The notes under the pieces are model-generated. The model was not told where the DNA came from and made no database searches. It worked only from the letters and a program-made list of their open reading frames with translations. The position numbers and the translations under genes are program-made. From an uncultured Clostridia bacterium (GTDB lineage: Bacteria > Bacillota > Clostridia > UMGS1883), in the NCBI GenBank assembly GCA_947626145.1, contig CANQRB010000001.1, positions 372,001 to 436,000 of the forward strand: DNA of 64,000 nt, given 5' to 3'. Shown here piece by piece: positions 46,123-62,286 of this stretch (position 1 is its first letter; every line of letters begins with the position of its first letter).

Positions 46123-46533
46123 TTAGCACAATTTTGTTACCGTGATATCCGCGTTGGCGACCGTGAGGGCTACTGTGGAACCGTTGGAAATAGATACACT
46201 GACAGTTTCATTACAGCAAACCTGAATTAACGTAGTCAAACTTACAGAATAAATGTTATCAACCGCGGTTGTAACAGTGGCCTGAGCGCCGGGGATATTT
46301 ACACCGTTGGTCTGTATGTTGACAACAGCGGTCCCGGCGGCGGCGGTGGCTACATTTCCATTAAATGTGACCTCATAAATGCCGGGCTTGCGCAGATTTA
46401 CAACGCCGGTGCCGGGCTGGTGGGTGGCAGCGGCACAGCAGGCGCGGCCGCCGGTCTGAATTCGGGTAGACGCGTACAGTACGGGCGCGTTTACATTGAC
46501 GGTCTGAGCCGCCACATTTACAGCATTAACCAT
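46123..46533 (-). CDS. Uncharacterised phage-associated protein, beta-sandwich type
   Basis: The 136 residues are rich in Val, Thr, Ala and Asn and low in charge. Regular beta-strand phrases (VVNLRKPGIYEVTFNGNVAT, then VVNIQTNGVNIPGAQAT) resemble the C1q/TNF-like or BclA C-terminal jelly roll. Two CC pairs (GRACCAA and QVCCNE) stand out. It could be a trimeric surface or virion protein. GAGG precedes the ATG. Function is not known. Confidence 0.6.
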   Translation of the reverse strand: MVNAVNVAAQTVNVNAPVLYASTRIQTGGRACCAAATHQPGTGVVNLRKPGIYEVTFNGNVATAAAGTAVVNIQTNGVNIPGAQATVTTAVDNIYSVSLTTLIQVCCNETVSVSISNGSTVALTVANADITVTKLC

Positions 46534-46648: not shown

Positions 46649-47314
46649 TTAGGCAACAATACCGCTGTTGCCGCAGCCACAGCCGCAGGAACCAAAGCCC
46701 CAGCCGTTCAAGGACTGATACGGGCTAACAGTGGGATATGCGGGTACAGGCGTGGGCCTGAGCGCGTTTATAATGTTTGTTGTCTGCGTTGCCTGACTGA
46801 GCTGCATCTGGTAAGCGTTTACCTGAGCCTGAAGGTCGTCGATCTTGTTCTGGCACAGGAAGTCAAGTATCTTTTGAGTGTTGGCCGTTCCGGCGCTGAT
46901 TATGTCGCAAGTGTTCTTTGCGTTTTCATACCGTACCGAATCAATGTTCCTGTTGGTCTCACAGCAACACTGCTGATTTTGCGCCCCAACGTTGTAGATA
47001 GCCTGCTGTGTGCCGTTGAAACCGTTAAGCATTGTGGTGTTCATGGCATAGAAGCCGTCGCAAAGACCGCTCTGGATGCCCCTGACAGCGCTTTCCAGGT
47101 TGTTGAAATTCATGTCCTGGCAAAGGTCGCCGCGGGTAAGAGCGCCCTGAAGGGAGCCGTTATTGCCCCAGCCGTTGTTGCCCCAACCCATAAGGGCGAA
47201 GATCAGGAAGATGATAACCCAGATGTAGTTTCCGCCGAAACAGTCATCTCCGTAGTTGCCGCGCTGGTTCTGGCCCATAAGATAGCCGTCCAGCACACCG
47301 TTTGTTTCTGTCAT
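46649..47314 (-). CDS. Uncharacterised phage-associated membrane protein with CCC motif
   Basis: The 221-residue protein has a single hydrophobic helix near 30-44 (IWVIIFLIFALMGW), a Gly/Asn/Trp-rich linker, a helical middle with QQCCCETN, and QKILDFLCQNKIDDLQAQVNAY. The C-terminus is Pro-rich and ends in CGCGCGN. The family is common beside phage lysis genes in Clostridia, as far as I recall, but has no assigned role. The ATG at 47314 has AGGAG 8 bases upstream. Confidence 0.6.
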   Translation of the reverse strand: MTETNGVLDGYLMGQNQRGNYGDDCFGGNYIWVIIFLIFALMGWGNNGWGNNGSLQGALTRGDLCQDMNFNNLESAVRGIQSGLCDGFYAMNTTMLNGFNGTQQAIYNVGAQNQQCCCETNRNIDSVRYENAKNTCDIISAGTANTQKILDFLCQNKIDDLQAQVNAYQMQLSQATQTTNIINALRPTPVPAYPTVSPYQSLNGWGFGSCGCGCGNSGIVA

Positions 47315-47372
47315 TTCTGACACTCCTTTATAAAATATTTTTAAAGCGTTGCCGCTTTAAATCAAAAGAAAA

Positions 47373-47402
47373 GAGCCGTACACGTTTCCACGCATACGGC
47401 TC
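47373..47402 (-). terminator. Late-operon terminator, GAGCCGTA type, copy 1
   Basis: On the minus strand GAGCCGTATGCG pairs with CGTGTACGGCTC and is followed by TTTTCTTTT. Two inner pairs are G:U on the minus-strand RNA and would be A:C mismatches on the other strand, so the minus-strand transcript is the functional one. Related copies are at 56023 and 60807. Confidence 0.75.
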
Positions 47403-47412
47403 AAGGCTCTGC

Positions 47413-48124: not shown

Positions 48125-49042
48125 TTACACCCCTTTTATGTATTTGACGGCGTTTAAGACCATCTCAGCGACCTCCGCGCGGCTTGCGGGCCTGTCCGGC
48201 GCAAACTTGCCGCTGCCGTCGCCGTGGACTATCTCCAAAGCGGCAAGCTCATGTATTTGCTTTTCCGCCCAGTGGTTGGAAACGTCCGTAAATCTTATGC
48301 CCTTTGTCAGCCCGGCCAAGTTAAGATAATACCTGATACCGCTCTGCACTATGCGGGCCCAGCCGTTCTCGGTCTTTTCCACGTCTATTTGCGTACCCGC
48401 CAAACTTACGCCGTACAACTCATACTCCGTCCCCGCGCCGTAACGCACATTGAGAAAGCTGTCGGGGTCGGTAACGGTGTAAGCCTCGGTTTTGCCTGCC
48501 TTTAAGTTTGTCGGCTTATGTACTATGAAATAATATTTGACCTCATTTTTGAAGAAATTCCAGTCGGCGTCCAGTCTTGCCGCCGCGTTGGAAGCCGGGT
48601 CATTGATCAGCACGTTATTTCCCCGTATTCCGTACCACAATACGAAATGGCCTGAGCTTGTCCAGCGTCCCTTACCCATACAGGCGATAACGTAATCTCC
48701 CCGTTTGACAGCGTTGTAAGCGGCCAAATGCTCCGCCGCGCCGGGCTTATGGTACAGGCTTGCGCCGTTAAGCTGTTCGCATTTTAATCCGAATTTTTTG
48801 AAATACGGGGTAAAAAATGCGTAATAAGTGCCCTGATTGGCGGCCTTGTACCCGTTGGCCAAACTCCACTTGGCGGCCTCGAGGGGCGTTTCCGCAGGGT
48901 CGGCCCATTCGGCCGCAGCCATCGCCGCCGCCGTGGGGCCGCACCCTGACTTGCCGAGGTTTGTATTTTCCCCGCTGGTGCTGTATTCGTAATTCTTCCA
49001 GCGGCTGTCCGTCTGCATATATGAAACCGGTTTAAAACTCAT
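48125..49042 (-). CDS. Phage endolysin: C39-like peptidase, SH3 and SLH domains
   Basis: The 305 residues show an N-terminal papain-like C39 peptidase with Cys34 in GKSGCGPTAAAMA, His132 in SSGHFVLWYG and Asp148 in INDPA. A bacterial SH3 domain (about 186-243, TDPDSFLNVRYGAGTEYE) and a single S-layer homology module (about 249-303, FTDVSNHWAEKQIHELAALEIVHG) follow. The peptidase would cut peptide cross-links in the wall, and the other two domains would hold it there. No signal peptide is present, so release depends on the holin. Its start overlaps the holin stop. Confidence 0.88.
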   Translation of the reverse strand: MSFKPVSYMQTDSRWKNYEYSTSGENTNLGKSGCGPTAAAMAAAEWADPAETPLEAAKWSLANGYKAANQGTYYAFFTPYFKKFGLKCEQLNGASLYHKPGAAEHLAAYNAVKRGDYVIACMGKGRWTSSGHFVLWYGIRGNNVLINDPASNAAARLDADWNFFKNEVKYYFIVHKPTNLKAGKTEAYTVTDPDSFLNVRYGAGTEYELYGVSLAGTQIDVEKTENGWARIVQSGIRYYLNLAGLTKGIRFTDVSNHWAEKQIHELAALEIVHGDGSGKFAPDRPASRAEVAEMVLNAVKYIKGV

Positions 49043-49494
49043 TTTTCGCCCTCCTTCATTTCATTGTCAAGCGCATGGGAGGCCACCTCAAGCCCTCTTG
49101 TCAGCCATTCTGGCACGTTGACGCCGATAAGGACAAGGTTTTCCAACACGCTGCGGATTTCGTTGATTATGAACGTGGCCAAGGTGAACCATCCGAATAA
49201 TGCCGTCCAGCTCAAATCTATGCCAACCTGAGCGCCCATATCGGCGAAGGTGGAGGCCACGAAAAAGGCTATGCCGATAACTACCCAGTATCCCACCTTT
49301 TTCATGATACCTTTCGCGCCCTTGTTGGAATTTTCGGTGCTTGTTTCTTTGGCTTTCCAAATTCCCGTTATGTAATCCACCACTTCCAGCACCAGAAACG
49401 CGGCGAACAGATACCAGTATTTTCCCAGCGCCGCCGACAGCAGTGTTATTGCCGCCGCGCCTATGGTGTTGATTTTGTTTATAATAGTATTCAT
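49039..49494 (-). CDS. Phage holin family protein
   Basis: The 151-residue protein has three or four hydrophobic helices (about 10-40, 66-86, 90-120) and a short charged C-terminus. The layout matches the toxin-secretion/phage-lysis holin family (LVLEVVDYITGIWKAK is typical). It opens the membrane so that the endolysin can reach the wall. The stop overlaps the endolysin start by 4 bases. GGGAGGCGTAAAAC precedes the ATG. Confidence 0.88.
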   Translation of the reverse strand: MNTIINKINTIGAAAITLLSAALGKYWYLFAAFLVLEVVDYITGIWKAKETSTENSNKGAKGIMKKVGYWVVIGIAFFVASTFADMGAQVGIDLSWTALFGWFTLATFIINEIRSVLENLVLIGVNVPEWLTRGLEVASHALDNEMKEGEK

Positions 49495-49507
49495 GTTTTA
49501 CGCCTCC

Positions 49508-50848
49508 CTAATTGTCAGTAAATGCGATAGTTGCCTCGGCCACATTTTTATTGCCTAATTTCCGTTCCATGGATGTGATTATTCCGGTGCCGGTGCCGCC
49601 GTATTCCAGCGGGAAGGTCACACGGTCGCCGACGTTGAAGCCGGTAGAAACAAATTTCATGTTACATTTTTTTCTGGGATTTTCCACAAAATAATCATAT
49701 AATAAATTCAATATAGTTTCACTATATTCCGGATTAATGCTTCCTCCGCCGGTTACATTTAATACATTTTTGGGGTCTGTAACGCTGGGGAGTGTTTTTG
49801 TTATTGTCTGGTTATTGTGGTAATATTTAAATCCGTATACATTGACGTGCATTGCGTAATCGCTGCGCATCTCGACTTCGTTTGTCGATTTGCGGGTTAC
49901 GGCAGTGGTTTTATTGGCCCCAACCTTTGTTTCACCGCCGTCGGAATTTGCGACATATATATCATAACTGCCGAAATTAGCAAATGTTAACTCTCGTACA
50001 TACATATCGTCCAATTTAACTTTTGCGTTTTTTACATTGTCTTTTGTATTCAACAAAACAATGTGATCTACCAAACAAGGGCCGTATGGATCAAATCCAG
50101 CTATTTCGCCTCTACTATTATAATATGGCTGTAGTTTTGTTGAAGTATCAACGCCATAATTATCAATATTGATTGTAATGGCGTCATAGTTTTCCGGATC
50201 TTCTATGGACGTTCCCTGAAAAATATTTGTTGACGTTATCGACTTTGGCGTTTGCGTATTAATGGCGGTTATGGGCGTCACAATATAGTCCATCGCCGTG
50301 CCGGTGCTATTTACAGTTTCAATAAGCGCGGCGTTTGCAAAAAACAACAACGTTTGAAGCGCGTCCCGTCTTGTTGTATCTACATTGATATACATGGAAA
50401 TTTCTTTTGCCGAAAGATCTTCATCCGTGATTTTAAATTTTCCGTCAGTTCCTATAATTTGTCCATTATTAGTAATATCCATTAATATATCTTGCACGGT
50501 TTTTTGTTCATAATAATCACCGACAATTTTCTCCGTCATATTACTTAAATATCCGCTGCCTGTCACAGTATAAATATTTTGACTGATGCGTTCGACAGAA
50601 GTGACATAACGGATCAACCTCAATTTCAGATTAGTTCCAGAAGATGATGCATTATATATGTATATTTTCGCCCCATAACCGACGGTGTTTGCCGAAAGGT
50701 CAACCTCAGCTGTGAATGTCAAAGATGCGTCGGGCAGTGCCAATCCGGTTAAACATATTTCCTGATAATCGGAATAAGATTTTAATTGATTTTCGTTTAT
50801 AACAATATCCTGACTAAGGGCAGTATCGCGTATTTTTATAATTGTCAT
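49508..50848 (-). CDS. Phage tail tip or baseplate protein
   Basis: The 446-residue protein is beta-rich. The C-terminal phrases NMKFVSTGFNVGDRVTFPLEYGGTGTGIITSMERKL (in parts) resemble phage tail-associated proteins of the Gp37-like group. Its gene lies between the distal tail gene and the holin, where siphoviruses encode the tail tip and receptor-facing proteins. The ATG at 50848 overlaps the preceding stop (CCATGA). Codon use looks more A/T-rich than the flanking genes, perhaps because of recent exchange of the tail tip. Confidence 0.65.
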   Translation of the reverse strand: MTIIKIRDTALSQDIVINENQLKSYSDYQEICLTGLALPDASLTFTAEVDLSANTVGYGAKIYIYNASSSGTNLKLRLIRYVTSVERISQNIYTVTGSGYLSNMTEKIVGDYYEQKTVQDILMDITNNGQIIGTDGKFKITDEDLSAKEISMYINVDTTRRDALQTLLFFANAALIETVNSTGTAMDYIVTPITAINTQTPKSITSTNIFQGTSIEDPENYDAITINIDNYGVDTSTKLQPYYNSRGEIAGFDPYGPCLVDHIVLLNTKDNVKNAKVKLDDMYVRELTFANFGSYDIYVANSDGGETKVGANKTTAVTRKSTNEVEMRSDYAMHVNVYGFKYYHNNQTITKTLPSVTDPKNVLNVTGGGSINPEYSETILNLLYDYFVENPRKKCNMKFVSTGFNVGDRVTFPLEYGGTGTGIITSMERKLGNKNVAEATIAFTDN

Positions 50849-51234
50849 GGTTTTAAATACGCCTCCATCGGGACAAATTCCACTTCCAACTCGCCCCACA
50901 AAACTTTGCTGCCCTCCACGCGTTCAACTTTGCGGACGCCGGTGGAAACATAGGCGTTATATTTTATTGTGGTTTGATTATGAACTATTTCTACGGAATG
51001 TGATTCCTGCGGCCGCATCAATTTAGCAAACAAATTGTCGTAAGTTACAAGATTGCTCCCCCGGCGGCGGAAGGTCACCTTGTGCCCCACAAAAGTGCCT
51101 ATGATTTCCCGTATCATACGGCCACCGGCCGCTATGCTCCGGCCGCTGTTTTCACTGTCCAACACATTAAAGGTTTCCTCAATGCTTAAAACACAGACAT
51201 TATAAACATTGCCGTCGATTTTCACCAAGTCCAT
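50845..51234 (-). CDS. Phage distal tail-like protein
   Basis: The 129 residues (DLVKIDGNVYNVCVLSIEET and on) are beta-rich, as expected for the small Dit-like or tail-adaptor protein that follows the tape measure gene. The ATG at 51234 overlaps the tape measure stop (TGATG). GGGAGGTG lies about 7 bases upstream. Assignment rests mainly on size and gene order. Confidence 0.6.
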   Translation of the reverse strand: MDLVKIDGNVYNVCVLSIEETFNVLDSENSGRSIAAGGRMIREIIGTFVGHKVTFRRRGSNLVTYDNLFAKLMRPQESHSVEIVHNQTTIKYNAYVSTGVRKVERVEGSKVLWGELEVEFVPMEAYLKP

Positions 51235-55316: not shown

Positions 55317-55988
55317 TTAGATTATACCCATGTCGCTGCCGTCCGTATCGGGTTCGGTCTCAGGCTCGGGCAGAGGCTTTGACGGGCTTACGGTGTTCAT
55401 ATCGTCGCCGTCGTCCCCGTCATTTATAGAAGGGCCCATATCGTTTAAGGCAACAGCGTCCGCCTGGGGGCCGATAGACGCGCTGGCGGTGAATTTAATG
55501 GACGTTGTGAGGGAATTCACGGTGCCCCAGGTGCTCTTTTTGCTAAAGCCTATCTGAATAGGCATATCCACATGGGCGTCTCCGCCAAGGGACTGAGGCG
55601 TTATGGTGCAGTCGGTCTGCAATTCCGCCTCATAGCTTCCGGCGTTGCCAACATAGCCATGAATGATAAGCACCTCGAACAAGGCGAACTCGCTGTAGGC
55701 CTTGCGTTTGTAAATGTCGTACAGCTTCTCGGCCAGTTTGGAGCCGCCGCGAATGGTGTAAGGCTCGAAATCCTGTGTCATTTCAAGGTCGTTAACGTCG
55801 GTCTCCGTAATGCCAAGGATGTCGTTAACGGTTTCGATGTCGGGGTTGAACTCGATGCTGCTTTCCTCAATGCCGTGTCCGACACGTTCCCAGCTGGGGG
55901 CGCTGTGGGAGCCGACATTCACGCAAGTGACAAGCAGTTTGCGTTCGGCCTTCTGGTTGTCTTTAAGGTTAAAAGTCGATGCGGCCAT
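55317..55988 (-). CDS. Major tail (tube) protein
   Basis: The 223 residues carry a tail-tube domain from 1 to about 165: NQKAERKLLVTCVNVG, ESSIEFNPDIETVNDILG, RGGSKLAEKLYDI, then GGDAHVDMPIQIGF. A Pro/Asp/Glu-rich tail of about 40 residues follows. It is the close paralogue of the N-terminal half of the gene at 59307-60776, with roughly 70% identity by eye over the first 107 residues. A terminator (56023-56053) separates it from the upstream gene. GAAAGGAAGTATTTTAT precedes the ATG. Confidence 0.85.
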   Translation of the reverse strand: MAASTFNLKDNQKAERKLLVTCVNVGSHSAPSWERVGHGIEESSIEFNPDIETVNDILGITETDVNDLEMTQDFEPYTIRGGSKLAEKLYDIYKRKAYSEFALFEVLIIHGYVGNAGSYEAELQTDCTITPQSLGGDAHVDMPIQIGFSKKSTWGTVNSLTTSIKFTASASIGPQADAVALNDMGPSINDGDDGDDMNTVSPSKPLPEPETEPDTDGSDMGII

Positions 55989-56022: not shown

Positions 56023-56053
56023 GAGCCGTGTGCGCGTTGTACGCATACGGCTC
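56023..56053 (-). terminator. Late-operon terminator, GAGCCGTA type, copy 2
   Basis: On the minus strand GAGCCGTATGCG pairs with CGCACACGGCTC, and TTTTTAATTTTC follows. It lies directly after the tail-terminator-like gene and before the tail-tube gene. Confidence 0.75.
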
Positions 56054-56075
56054 AAGGCTCTTGGTCTTATTCGGT

Positions 56076-58624: not shown

Positions 58625-59212
58625 TTATTCTTTGGGCTTTGCCCGGATGCCGGTAAAGGTGAAGTGGAAAGGCTCCGTCTTTGCCGCGTCCGCCCCGCCG
58701 CCCATGCCGGGGATGTTGATGTTTTGCGGGCTTTCGAACAACCCGTCACGGTTTTCCGTCAGCCCCTTGAAGATGTCCGCGTCGGCCTTTCCGGCATTTG
58801 CCTTGTCTGCCATAGCGGTGCGGAATTCGTTGAATATCCCTTTTTTGGTGAAATCGTTGATGAATTTTTTCTCGCCGGCGGCGGCGTTGAACCGCTCAAG
58901 GTCGGCGGCCTCCTGCGTTGCGGCCTCGTCGGCGGCCTTACGGTCATCGATTATCTTTTGCAGCTCCGCCACCTTGGCGTTCAGCGCGTCGGCGTTGGCT
59001 CCGGCGGCCTTTAGCTGTTCAAGCTGCCCCTCGAGAGCTTTGACCGTCTCATTGGCGGCACTGAGCTTGTCGACCTGGGCGTCAAACTTGCCTTTGGCCA
59101 CGTAATCGCCGCCGCTAAGGTCGGCCAGTTTGATTTTGCCCGCCGCGCAGGCGTTCACAAATTCGTCGAATGTAAGGGATTTGTCCGCAAAAATTGGTTT
59201 TAAAAATTCCAT
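58625..59212 (-). CDS. Phage scaffold protein (GP20 type)
   Basis: The 195-residue protein has a central coiled coil (about 50-110, QVDKLSAANETVKALEGQLEQLK and on) and a C-terminal Gly-rich end. It matches the minor structural GP20 or scaffold group that guides capsid assembly and is often absent from the mature particle. The preferred start is the ATG at 59212, with GGAAAGG about 8 bases upstream. The frame extends to 59260 without a better site. Confidence 0.8.
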   Translation of the reverse strand: MEFLKPIFADKSLTFDEFVNACAAGKIKLADLSGGDYVAKGKFDAQVDKLSAANETVKALEGQLEQLKAAGANADALNAKVAELQKIIDDRKAADEAATQEAADLERFNAAAGEKKFINDFTKKGIFNEFRTAMADKANAGKADADIFKGLTENRDGLFESPQNINIPGMGGGADAAKTEPFHFTFTGIRAKPKE

Positions 59213-59306
59213 ATATATTTTCCTTTCCGGCATAGATTTTATTTGTATATGCGCTGCCACTCAGCGCCGCGCCGATGCCGCGTTAAACCTCCGCGGCGAG
59301 GGAGGG
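59213..59306 (-). repeat. Hairpins directly after the variable lectin gene
   Basis: Within 94 bases of the stop are two inverted repeats on the minus strand: CCTCC/GGAGG (about 59288-59305) and GCGCTG/CAGCGC with a 5-base loop (59251-59267). Hairpins just downstream of the variable repeat help retrohoming in known DGRs, so these are candidates for such a site. They could equally be ordinary transcript structures. Confidence 0.45.
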
Positions 59307-60776
59307 TCAGGCGTCGTAATATGCGAGGCGGAAGCCGCGGCCGACGTTGACGTACGAGCGCGGGTTGCTGAGGATCAGGGCGAAAACGCCGGCGTCCGCA
59401 CCATACGTCCAGTGGCCCCCGCGATACGGGAGGCGCTCACTATACTTTGTTTGCGCCCAGAAGTGGTCGCCCTTATAATCTGCCGCTGTCCCGTCCGGCC
59501 CGAGGCCCCAAAGCTGAAGCGTTTTCTTGGCGTTCGCGCCTATGCCTGTAGCGTATGCCACGCTGCCGAAAGCCGTGCTTTCCCAGTTGCTGGTTGGCGT
59601 TGATATGCCGGTGCCCCAAGTGTAAACGCCGCCTACGCGGTCAAGCTTGACGGTGCTGCCGCTGGCCTTGACCGCCGTGTCGGTGGTCTTGCACTCCGGC
59701 GTAACAAATTTGCCTGTGGCGGCGTCGAGGGCCTTCCAGTCGTCGCCCGGGTTCGGTTTAAACTGTGCTTCGCCCCATACCAGGCGGAGGCCGTCGACCC
59801 ATTCCCAAACATTTCCGTTTAAGTCATAAATGCCGTTTTCGGTGCCGTCGTGGCTCCATGTCACCGGCCCGGTGCCGGTCTTGACCAAATTAATTCTGTC
59901 GTCATCGCCGTAAGTAGCGGGTTCGGCCACATATTCCGTTTCGGTGTGGTCTTTGCCGTAGTCGTTGTTGCCCTTGGGCTGAGTGCCGTTTTTCTTGCAC
60001 CACAGGGCGATTGCCGCCCACTCCGCGTTGGTCATCAGGTGCCAGCCTTTGCCCTTTGCCGCGCATTTTGAAGCGGCGTCATCAAAATTTATATCTGTCC
60101 ACGGCGTCTGGCCGTATTTGCTCTGCGGAACGCCCTTGCCGTCGTCGCTGGCCTGATATTTGCCTATCCATATGCCGGCAAGGGGCTTGCCGTTGACGAT
60201 AAACGCCGGGTGCAGCTCGTTGTCGCCGTCCTCAAGCACGTCGCAGTTCCTGAACGCGGGTATCCACACCATTTCTTCTTTGCGGAAGGTCATGCCGTTG
60301 GTCAGCTTGTCCACGAGGCCAAGCTCTTTGTCCCCGGAAAAGGTGATCGTTATCGGCATGTCAACATGTGCGTCGCCGCCCTCGGACTGTGGCGTAACGG
60401 TGCAGTTTATATGCTTTTCGGCGGTGAACCCGTCGGAGGGCGTAGACACATAGCCGAAAATAAGCAGCACCTCAAACTGCGCGAATTCCGTATACGCGCG
60501 GCGCTTGTTGATGTCGTATATCTTCAGCGCCAGCTTGGAGCCGCCCCGCACCGTCATCGGCTCAAGGTCTTGGGACATCTCGAAGCTCTTGACGTCCGTT
60601 TCGGTATTGCCGAGTATGTCGTTGACGGTCTCGATGTCCGGGTTGAACTCGATGCTGCTATCCTGCACGCCGCGTCCGACAACTTCCCATTCGGGCGCGT
60701 CGGGTGTTCCTGCGTTTACGGCGGTAACAAGCAGCTTGCGGGCCGCCTTTTGATTGTAATTCAGGTTAAAAGGCAT
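59307..60776 (-). CDS. Tail-tube paralogue fused to an FGE/C-type lectin domain; likely DGR target
   Basis: The 489 residues have two parts. Residues 1-165 match the phage's own tail-tube protein: NQKAARKLLVTAVNAG, SSIEFNPDIETVNDILG, GGDAHVDMPITITF. Residues 168-489 form a formylglycine-generating-enzyme-like C-type lectin fold, with MVWIPAF, NAEWAAIALW and GNVWEWVDG (321-329). The catalytic cysteines of true FGE are absent from the last 100 residues, so it is a binding domain. The last ~44 residues (446-489) have the pattern of DGR variable proteins: YRGGHW, GADAGVFAL, NPRS, GFRLAYYDA. The gene lies between a zinc-ribbon gene and the scaffold gene. GAGGTGATAAAAA precedes the ATG. Confidence 0.88.
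   Translation of the reverse strand: MPFNLNYNQKAARKLLVTAVNAGTPDAPEWEVVGRGVQDSSIEFNPDIETVNDILGNTETDVKSFEMSQDLEPMTVRGGSKLALKIYDINKRRAYTEFAQFEVLLIFGYVSTPSDGFTAEKHINCTVTPQSEGGDAHVDMPITITFSGDKELGLVDKLTNGMTFRKEEMVWIPAFRNCDVLEDGDNELHPAFIVNGKPLAGIWIGKYQASDDGKGVPQSKYGQTPWTDINFDDAASKCAAKGKGWHLMTNAEWAAIALWCKKNGTQPKGNNDYGKDHTETEYVAEPATYGDDDRINLVKTGTGPVTWSHDGTENGIYDLNGNVWEWVDGLRLVWGEAQFKPNPGDDWKALDAATGKFVTPECKTTDTAVKASGSTVKLDRVGGVYTWGTGISTPTSNWESTAFGSVAYATGIGANAKKTLQLWGLGPDGTAADYKGDHFWAQTKYSERLPYRGGHWTYGADAGVFALILSNPRSYVNVGRGFRLAYYDA
59310..59441 (-). repeat. Candidate DGR variable region (VR) at the 3' end of the lectin gene
   Basis: This stretch codes for the last ~44 residues. In related lectin folds this is where the DGR variable sites sit, and the conserved framework RGG-W, AGVFAL, RS and GFR is interrupted by changed positions (H, T, Y, D, I, S, Y, V). 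A DGR template repeat would match it except at adenines. No such repeat was found in the window. Confidence 0.65.
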
Positions 60777-60806: not shown

Positions 60807-60841
60807 GAGCCGCATACGTGAAATACTCACATATACGGCTC
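60807..60841 (-). terminator. Late-operon terminator, GAGCCGTA type, copy 3
   Basis: On the minus strand GAGCCGTATATGTGAG pairs with CACGTATGCGGCTC, and TTTTTGTTTATTTTTG follows. It lies at the end of the zinc-ribbon gene and just before the lectin fusion gene, so that gene may be transcribed separately from the upstream genes. Confidence 0.75.
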
Positions 60842-61034
60842 AATGGCTCTGTTTTATATCGCTGTTTTGGCTCAAAGGCTCGGGAAAATACAAACGTCCG
60901 TTAATTATCGTCGGCGTCAAATGCTCGCCGCACCGCTTACACAATAGGTCGGGGTTTATCATGGTGGTGTTGCCGTAAACCGGGACGATTTTCTTCCCGC
61001 AGCCGCACCACAACCAACCGTCACGGATGCACAT
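60840..61034 (-). CDS. Small zinc-ribbon phage protein (Com/KTR-like)
   Basis: The 64 residues carry CGCG near residue 10 and CKRCG near 33, likely one zinc-ribbon site, and the phrase PTIINGRLYFPEP. Small Cys-rich proteins of this kind resemble the phage Mu Com regulator or the cysteine-rich KTR group. It lies between the minor capsid gene and the lectin gene. AGAGGAAAATAT precedes the ATG. A regulatory role is possible, not shown. Confidence 0.6.
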   Translation of the reverse strand: MCIRDGWLWCGCGKKIVPVYGNTTMINPDLLCKRCGEHLTPTIINGRLYFPEPLSQNSDIKQSH

Positions 61035-61122: not shown

Positions 61123-62286
61123 TTAATGATACCCTGAAACGGTCAGTTTTTTCGGCTTTACTGACAGCCCCGCGGCCTTGCTGAACTCCGTGTATTTGTC
61201 CTTCAAGGCGTTGATTTTCGCCCTTGTTTCCCGCCGTAGCTGCTCATCGCCGCTGCCCTTGGCGAGAATATACACGTCCTTTTGGCGGCGAATGTTGGTC
61301 TCCATGCGCCGTTGTATCTGCGTGGCCTGATACATGGTGTAGTGCTTACCCTCAAACTCGATGCCCCGCGCGTTTTCGTCGGCCATCGCCCTAAGCTCCT
61401 CTTCGGTGTACTTTGGCGGCGCGCCCATCTTGATTTGAAAGACGAAGTGGTAACAGTTTAACGTGCCTATACGGCGTTGTAGGCTGTTGTTCAACTGTTC
61501 AAACGCCTCGTGGGTGTACTGGCGGCCCTGTATGGGTTCATGGTCGGGAGCGCTGAACCTGTGGGCGGAAATCTCCACCCCGTCCGCTCCGAATTCCTCG
61601 CCGACCTGACGCTGTATCTCAATATTGGTCTGTTTTATGCCCTCAAGCAAATTCATTCTTACCGCGCTGTCCAGCCGCCGGTGGTAGCCCGTAGCGTAGT
61701 CCACGCGCTGTAAGCCCTCTTCGCCCAGCGCTTTAAGGCTTTTGCGCATGGAGCTGTAAAAATCCTCATACCCAAGCGTTGTCGTCTGTATGGCTTTGTC
61801 AAGTATGCCTGTGTACGTGTTTGTCAAATCGGTGGGCACCTTGCGCCCTCGGGCGTCGTAGGTCATGTACGCAGTGGTGTTGGACAGGCCGGCATATTCC
61901 CGGGCGGCAACCTCGGCCTGCGCCTTTACCCAGCGTTGCAAGGGCTTGTTTTCCTCGTACGGGATAAACGGCTTTTGCGCGTAATCGTAGAAAACCTTGC
62001 TGTATTCCACGCTTTCACGGGCGAGAAAGTCGTAAATGACGTATATCTCCGCCACGTTCAGCGCGGTCATACGTTCCAGCTCGCGGTTTATTTTGTCCAC
62101 GTCCGCCCCGTACCGCCGCATAAGGTTCAGGCGGTGGGTATCCGTCACCGACATGACGCCCAGCTCCTTAAGGCGGGCGGCTATCATCTGCAAATAGTAG
62201 GTGTTGAATTCGTCTATCCTCTCGCTCAGGCGGTCGCCTAGGGCGTTAATGGTGTCCTCGGTGAGAACCTTATTCCGTTCCGGCAT
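61123..62286 (-). CDS. Phage minor capsid protein (Phage_min_cap2 type)
   Basis: The 387-residue protein matches the minor capsid 2 family: a helical N-terminal half, GYEDFYSSMRKSLKALGEEGLQRVDYATGYHRRLDSAVRMNLLEG (in parts), GVEISAHRFSAPDHEPIQGRQY (in parts) and a C-terminal basic tail. It overlaps the portal gene by 17 bases. It is a minor head protein, possibly involved in DNA entry. Confidence 0.87.
   Translation of the reverse strand: MPERNKVLTEDTINALGDRLSERIDEFNTYYLQMIAARLKELGVMSVTDTHRLNLMRRYGADVDKINRELERMTALNVAEIYVIYDFLARESVEYSKVFYDYAQKPFIPYEENKPLQRWVKAQAEVAAREYAGLSNTTAYMTYDARGRKVPTDLTNTYTGILDKAIQTTTLGYEDFYSSMRKSLKALGEEGLQRVDYATGYHRRLDSAVRMNLLEGIKQTNIEIQRQVGEEFGADGVEISAHRFSAPDHEPIQGRQYTHEAFEQLNNSLQRRIGTLNCYHFVFQIKMGAPPKYTEEELRAMADENARGIEFEGKHYTMYQATQIQRRMETNIRRQKDVYILAKGSGDEQLRRETRAKINALKDKYTEFSKAAGLSVKPKKLTVSGYH

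Follow-up and report, generated by a model that had tools for sequence, protein, structure and literature searches.

C-terminal extensions of tail-tube proteins project outward from the tail in SPP1, lambda, T5 and lactococcal phages, and the Ig domains of lambda V are a further case of adhesin domains carried on tube subunits. The tail of SPP1 is a mixture of gp17.1 and gp17.1* in a ratio of about 3:1, in which the extension is not essential (PMC6316719). The TpeX modules of lactococcal phages bind host cells and could reach about 180 copies per tail (PMC6669499). In this study, we focused on a gene in a 64,000-nt stretch of DNA, here called the window, from the draft genome assembly of a Clostridia-like bacterium (2.44 Mb, 23 contigs, 95% complete). 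The right part of the window is a siphophage prophage, and its late genes lie on the minus strand. In one of these genes a tail-tube domain continues into a lectin of a family that DGRs diversify.

Two domains of the tube-lectin fusion

The fusion gene, its two domains and the plain tube gene of the same prophage are as follows.

59307..60776, minus strand: tube-lectin fusion gene, 489 aa, a single open frame from ATG with no internal stop
60282..60776, minus strand: tail-tube domain, residues 1-165 (similarity to the phage's own tube, phrog_3099, tube fold)
59310..60272, minus strand: C-type (FGE-subtype) lectin, residues 169-489 (phrog_2889; TaqVP by sequence and fold)
55317..55988, minus strand: plain tail-tube gene, 223 aa (phrog_3099, tail-tube fold), between the tail-terminator and chaperone genes

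A Shine-Dalgarno-like GAGGTGAT upstream of the fusion gene is an apparent ribosome-binding site. Over 164 aligned residues, the tube domain (residues 1-165) shares 64% identity with the plain tube, the DNA of the two genes matches at 71% over 300 nt, and both copies match phrog_3099 (E 7.6e-21 and 7.5e-23). The original prediction had estimated about 70% identity over 107 residues, and counting from the invariant alignment columns gave 76/107, or 71%, for the first 107. In the other half, residues 169-488 match phrog_2889 (E 2.2e-102), residues 215-328 match Pfam FGE-sulfatase (E 1.2e-9), and the best solved relative by sequence is TaqVP (5vf4, E 1.2e-41). The C-terminal 42 residues (448-489) contain no cysteine; the catalytic cysteine pair is therefore absent, and a reading of the domain as a formylglycine-generating enzyme (FGE) was rejected. 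The sequence thus confirmed what had been proposed, a one-frame protein of 489 aa in which a tube paralogue is followed by an FGE/C-type lectin without the catalytic cysteines.

A search of PDB sequences with the tube profile returned chance matches only, and a search by fold was therefore needed. AlphaFold models of the fusion and of the plain tube were compared with solved structures. The tube fold, a beta-sandwich with one helix, was predicted for both proteins, and both matched solved tail tubes; the tube domain of the fusion matched the 80alpha baseplate entry 6v8i (Z 11.0) and SPP1 6yeg (Z 9.4). Neck and baseplate entries were also among the fold matches of the tube copies. The predicted lectin matched TaqVP 5vf4 with Z 26.4 over 277 residues at 37% identity, and it also matched TvpA 2y3c (Z 8.2) and Mtd 1yu3 (Z 7.6). 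Model confidence was low (pLDDT <50) at residues 169-222, in the linker and at the start of the lectin (its first 50 residues), partly because the combined alignment put lectin N-termini into tube columns. Structure prediction of the product had been proposed as a check. Residues 1-165 matched tail-tube folds and the lectin half matched TaqVP; the models thus bore out both folds of the suggested pair, in which one tube subunit is plain and the other carries a lectin from a DGR-target family.

Duplicated tube gene in the prophage

The late genes of the prophage follow the usual order (terminase (TIGR01547), portal, minor head, scaffold, capsid, connectors, tube, chaperones, tape measure, distal tail and Tal-like), which is the same in about 30 relatives, and no sheath gene was seen among the assembled late genes. 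The fusion gene is separated by 3.3 kb from the plain tube gene and sits between the minor head and scaffold genes, that is, among head genes and away from the tail module. Its neighbours and the leader hairpins of the prophage are listed here.

61123..62286, minus strand: minor head protein gene (Phage_min_cap2, Pfam match), upstream of the fusion gene in the operon
60840..61034, minus strand: small cysteine-rich ORF, a possible zinc-ribbon by sequence, between the minor head and fusion genes; no family match in Pfam or phrog searches
60807..60843, minus strand: leader hairpin of the fusion gene, with a T run (97-nt leader, MFE z -5.8)
59216..59308, minus strand: GP20-a RNA motif of the scaffold gene (Rfam RF02991, 56.3 bits against a threshold of 47.2)
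58625..59260, minus strand: scaffolding protein gene (phrog_194), next gene downstream of the fusion
56023..56055, minus strand: leader hairpin of the plain tube gene, the same element as upstream of the fusion gene
47373-47404, minus strand: third leader hairpin, preceding ORF 46649-47323

The hairpins share the pattern TTGAGCCGTATGCG...ACGGCTC followed by a T run, of which the third copy is a variant. The element is present three times in the genome, always in the prophage, and the exact pattern is confined to the prophage. A role as a conserved regulator of tube genes was rejected, as the hairpin is absent upstream of the tube in relatives.

The fusion and the plain tube were sisters (support 98/94) on a tree of 36 tubes, namely these two and 34 others, which places the duplication inside this phage lineage. 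The nearest phage tubes (L169-L171) are 52-60% identical, and the two copies are closer to each other. The branch of the fusion is twice as long as that of the plain tube (0.51 vs 0.26). Between the copies, dN was 0.30 and dS 1.50 (NG86), and the resulting dN/dS of about 0.2, which is only rough because dS is near saturation, indicates that the tube half has been kept functional under purifying selection. Of the 46 tube columns conserved in the family, 31 are kept in the fusion and 36 in the plain tube. To judge from these sequences, the event looks like a functional duplication of the tube gene within this phage lineage. The plain tube ends in a 53-aa acidic low-complexity tail (55317-55480, minus strand) that is absent from all of about 45 relatives.

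These tube relatives (IMG/VR and GTDB species genomes) all end within a few residues of the tube domain, and the five on long sequences (27-71 kb) have one tube each and no lectin. No match spanning both halves was found in more than 800 genomes searched up to phylum level or in the INPHARED phages, by scans for short peptide patterns in sampled genomes. These scans show the rarity of the tube-lectin fusion, which is unique within the searched collections; we do not claim its absence elsewhere. We found no literature on tube-lectin fusions or on paralogous lectin-bearing tube subunits, and an unreported case is possible in the global DGR survey, which reports varied N-terminal folds (PMC8144416). 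A search for the same two-part architecture had been suggested at the outset, and with no further example in the collections or the literature found, we regard the architecture as confirmed and, as far as searched, new.

The joined architecture has been observed once, in a draft assembly of 23 contigs, and a chimeric join of tube and lectin genes by the assembler has to be considered. It is scarcely credible. The tube half is 71% identical in DNA to the plain tube and is therefore not a misplaced copy of it, the reading frame continues across the junction, the genes on either side are the neighbours expected from the gene order of the family, and the lectin's own leader and DGR flank are cleanly missing.

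The contig ends 6.9 kb past the window edge with the prophage still running, and the early region of the prophage is unassembled; the remaining part was not found among the contigs of the assembly. Three contigs were considered and rejected: C17 shares the sequence behind the tmRNA but is chromosomal, C8 has an integrase at its start yet is a different element, and C2 starts with an integrase end that is followed by host genes. Contig C2 also carries a group II intron with a 606-aa maturase (L004 1495-5226), which apparently interrupts the portal gene of another prophage.

Ancestry of the lectin and search for a DGR

The lectin was compared with about 100 homologues drawn from IMG/VR, genomes and phages. 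Their lectin domain is preceded by a short leader (0-90 aa), typically MANFDLTxLAxK...DDxGxPSVMV, which is in no case tube-like, and a tube domain is absent from all of them. In one locus (L194 997-2412) a stretch resembling nucleoside deoxyribosyltransferase precedes a family lectin, either in the same frame or immediately in front of it. This lectin with its longer upstream part carries an internal MSNEL start of the usual kind, and its sequence possibly represents two genes, with the lectin having its own start. The family is a true DGR-target family: in the 48 relatives that have a template repeat, template adenines account for 590 of the 608 mismatches to it. The closest lectin (58-59% identity) belongs to a prophage from the same bacterial genus; that prophage has a contractile tail and is equipped with a template repeat and a reverse transcriptase of its own. 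We infer that the lectin was likely transferred between prophages of one host group.

A probable trace of this ancestry is retained in the fusion.

59319..59435, minus strand: residues 448-486, which correspond to the variable repeat in DGR-target relatives (alignment to 47 template repeats of relatives)

Ten codons of the fusion lie at sites that are AAY in the templates of most relatives, and nine of them end in C or T (p about 0.04, scored against the 47 template repeats of relatives and not against a template of its own). Pyrimidine third bases are as expected if the stretch was once written from an AAY template.

The lectin had originally been described as diversified and variable, and this part was not supported. 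No template repeat was found in the assembled 2.44 Mb, where copies of the variable repeat were short chance matches only, and no DGR reverse transcriptase was found in the assembled genome, whose sole reverse transcriptase is of the group II intron type. A DGR acting in trans from elsewhere in the assembled genome was rejected for the same two reasons. The recognition site is also absent. In BPP-1, a target is recognised only if its variable repeat is followed by a GC-rich hairpin whose loop is of the GRNA type (PMC3240598). A perfect hairpin of at least 7 pairs was present in 30 of 41 template-linked relatives of the lectin but in only 12 of 1540 shuffled flanks; every one of the 41 also has 3-5 CTG triplets before it. 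Behind the fusion gene, neither a perfect stem of at least 7 pairs with a 4-nt loop nor the CTG tract was found within 90 nt; the stop codon abuts the GP20-a RNA, where relatives have the DGR recognition hairpin.

The CTG tract itself is a regular feature of DGR lectin loci (L012, L013, L018, L042, L088, L095, L098 and others). It consists of about four triplets, mostly ATCTG or AACTG, spaced 7-8 nt apart in 106 of 119 spacings, and lies in the first 60 nt behind the variable repeat, followed by the hairpin, usually with a GATA loop. No mention of the tract was found in the literature, whereas the hairpin is known from the BPP-1 work.

It could still be argued that the unassembled early region contains a template repeat, Avd and a reverse transcriptase that act on the remote lectin, because the lectin belongs to a DGR-target family, its variable-repeat footprint is retained and the contig stops inside the prophage, 6.9 kb past the window. 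Remote second targets do exist: in the Faecalibacterium phage Lagaffe, a second lectin gene contains another variable repeat (L012 31026-31130), at a distance of about 10 kb from the template repeat (PMC11792537). However, an assembly that is 95% complete holds neither a template repeat nor a DGR reverse transcriptase in 2.44 Mb, and the hairpin required in BPP-1 (PMC3240598) and the CTG tract are both lacking within 90 nt of the gene, so that we consider an active DGR improbable. Since the cis site and the machinery of a DGR were not found, the lectin was most likely captured without its homing site, and its specificity is most likely fixed in this genome. On these sequences, the involvement of a DGR is reduced to ancestry.

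Proposed role in the tail and comparison with known systems

We propose, with moderate confidence, that the fusion is a minor tube subunit that copolymerises with the plain one and shows a now-fixed lectin along the tail shaft. The phage's tube gene was duplicated, and the C-terminus of one copy would have been joined to the lectin from the DGR-target gene of another phage. The tube half would co-assemble with plain subunits in the hexameric rings of a non-contractile tail, and the C-terminal lectin would project outward from the shaft, as the tube extensions of SPP1, lambda and lactococcal phages do. By analogy with the SPP1 and lactococcal tails, the fusion may be inserted now and then among plain subunits, and several lectin copies per virion could provide avidity for a host surface glycan or protein. 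What the sequences and models show is the two-domain protein, its two predicted folds, the duplication in the lineage, a tube half under purifying selection and a variable-repeat footprint. That the lectin is built into the tail shaft is plausible on the model of these tails. The minor-subunit reading is supported by the tube fold of both copies, their sister placement and their common leader hairpin, and also by the intact siphophage gene order without a sheath gene. The 35-kDa lectin may be too bulky for dense packing along the tube, in which case only sparse insertion is plausible. The location of the gene among head genes, its occurrence in a single genome with no second case in the collections searched, and the low model confidence at residues 169-222 are points against a subunit of the shaft.

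The same location allows a different placement, in which the fusion would be confined to a single defined ring, at the neck or beside the tail tip, and the lectin would be an adhesin of the collar or baseplate type. Proteins with the tube fold also build terminator and distal rings, and the fold search did return entries from necks and baseplates. The gene, placed between those for minor head and scaffold proteins, stands away from the tail module, and lactococcal neck passage proteins bear binding modules at the neck (PMC6669499). However, the tube half resembles terminator and distal-tail proteins far less than it resembles the tube protein, its origin is a recent duplication of the tube gene, and the sequence gives no sign of a special ring. 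A single ring is therefore unlikely. There is a slim chance that the fusion acts outside the virion, either as an evolutionary dead end or as a protein of the lysogen that, for example, interferes with the tails of related phages. Its single occurrence across the searched collections and its branch length, twice that of the plain tube (0.51 vs 0.26), would fit such a fate, but the open frame, the apparent ribosome-binding site and the purifying selection argue for a maintained protein, and the gene, flanked by structural genes of the late operon, has the same leader hairpin as the tube gene.

For the proposed minor subunit, the receptor-binding function is a further consideration. Holin and endolysin genes directly follow the Tal-like gene, and no tail-fibre or receptor-binding gene was found between Tal and holin (region 49039-50899, minus strand), whereas relatives such as L050 and L069 have a gene in the usual receptor-binding or fibre place. 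The receptor-binding role is thus otherwise poorly filled, and the shaft lectin could be a main receptor binder. Alternatively, Tal or a small BclA-like protein could be the real receptor binder. The latter (46123-46533, minus strand) matches the BclA C-terminal (TNF-like) domain just below the Pfam cut-off and is a possible further surface protein of the virion. The endolysin-like protein (48125-49042, minus strand) contains C39-type peptidase, SH3 and S-layer homology (SLH) domains, of which the SLH domain suggests anchoring to a host S-layer polymer.

If the proposed reading is correct, this would be the first case found in which a DGR-type receptor lectin has been relocated from the tail tip onto a tube subunit, as well as the first of a mixed plain and decorated tail made by gene duplication and not by frameshifting. 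The tail shaft itself may grip the host cell, and it becomes a testable question whether shaft adhesins carry host recognition when no tip fibre is visible. The locus also suggests a route by which DGR lectins are captured and then frozen after loss of the recognition hairpin. A fusion-bearing tail would offer a natural display scaffold with some hundred sites. Were a DGR in the early region to diversify the lectin in its many copies along the shaft, which we regard as very doubtful, the tail would be a randomised multivalent adhesive along its length.

Among DGR-linked proteins, the fusion resembles TaqVP, the DGR variable protein of a Thermus aquaticus prophage (5vf4), in its lectin fold and in a putative C-terminal variable region. 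However, TaqVP is a single-domain protein with an intact DGR (PMC6328139), whereas here the lectin is fused to a tube domain and no DGR was found in the assembled genome. The DGR targets of Lagaffe contain a homologous lectin (49.7% identity), but they belong to a contractile-tail phage, have an N-terminal leader of about 30 aa and are accompanied by an active-type DGR beside the gene. The Mtd of BPP-1, a receptor binder, shares the DGR-type C-lectin fold (1yu3, Z 7.6); unlike the fusion, it sits at the tail tip as a trimer, has beta domains of its own and lacks a tube domain.

Among tube proteins, a counterpart to the proposed mixed tail is SPP1 gp17.1*, where plain and extended subunits occur together, the extension is an exposed domain and a role in adhesion has been suggested (PMC6316719). 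The 87-aa FN3 extension of gp17.1* arises by a +1 frameshift, while the prophage has a duplicated gene and a 320-aa lectin. TpeX, the major tail protein extension of lactococcal 936 phages, also places a binding-type domain, in its case a carbohydrate-binding module, behind the tube domain of part of the subunits, and its host binding was measured with fusion proteins (PMC6669499). TpeX, however, is a frameshift product of the same gene with a BppA-type module, and the prophage uses a separate gene and a DGR-type lectin. An adhesin domain on part of the tube subunits is therefore a known principle, and what is new in this prophage is the type of lectin and the route by gene duplication.
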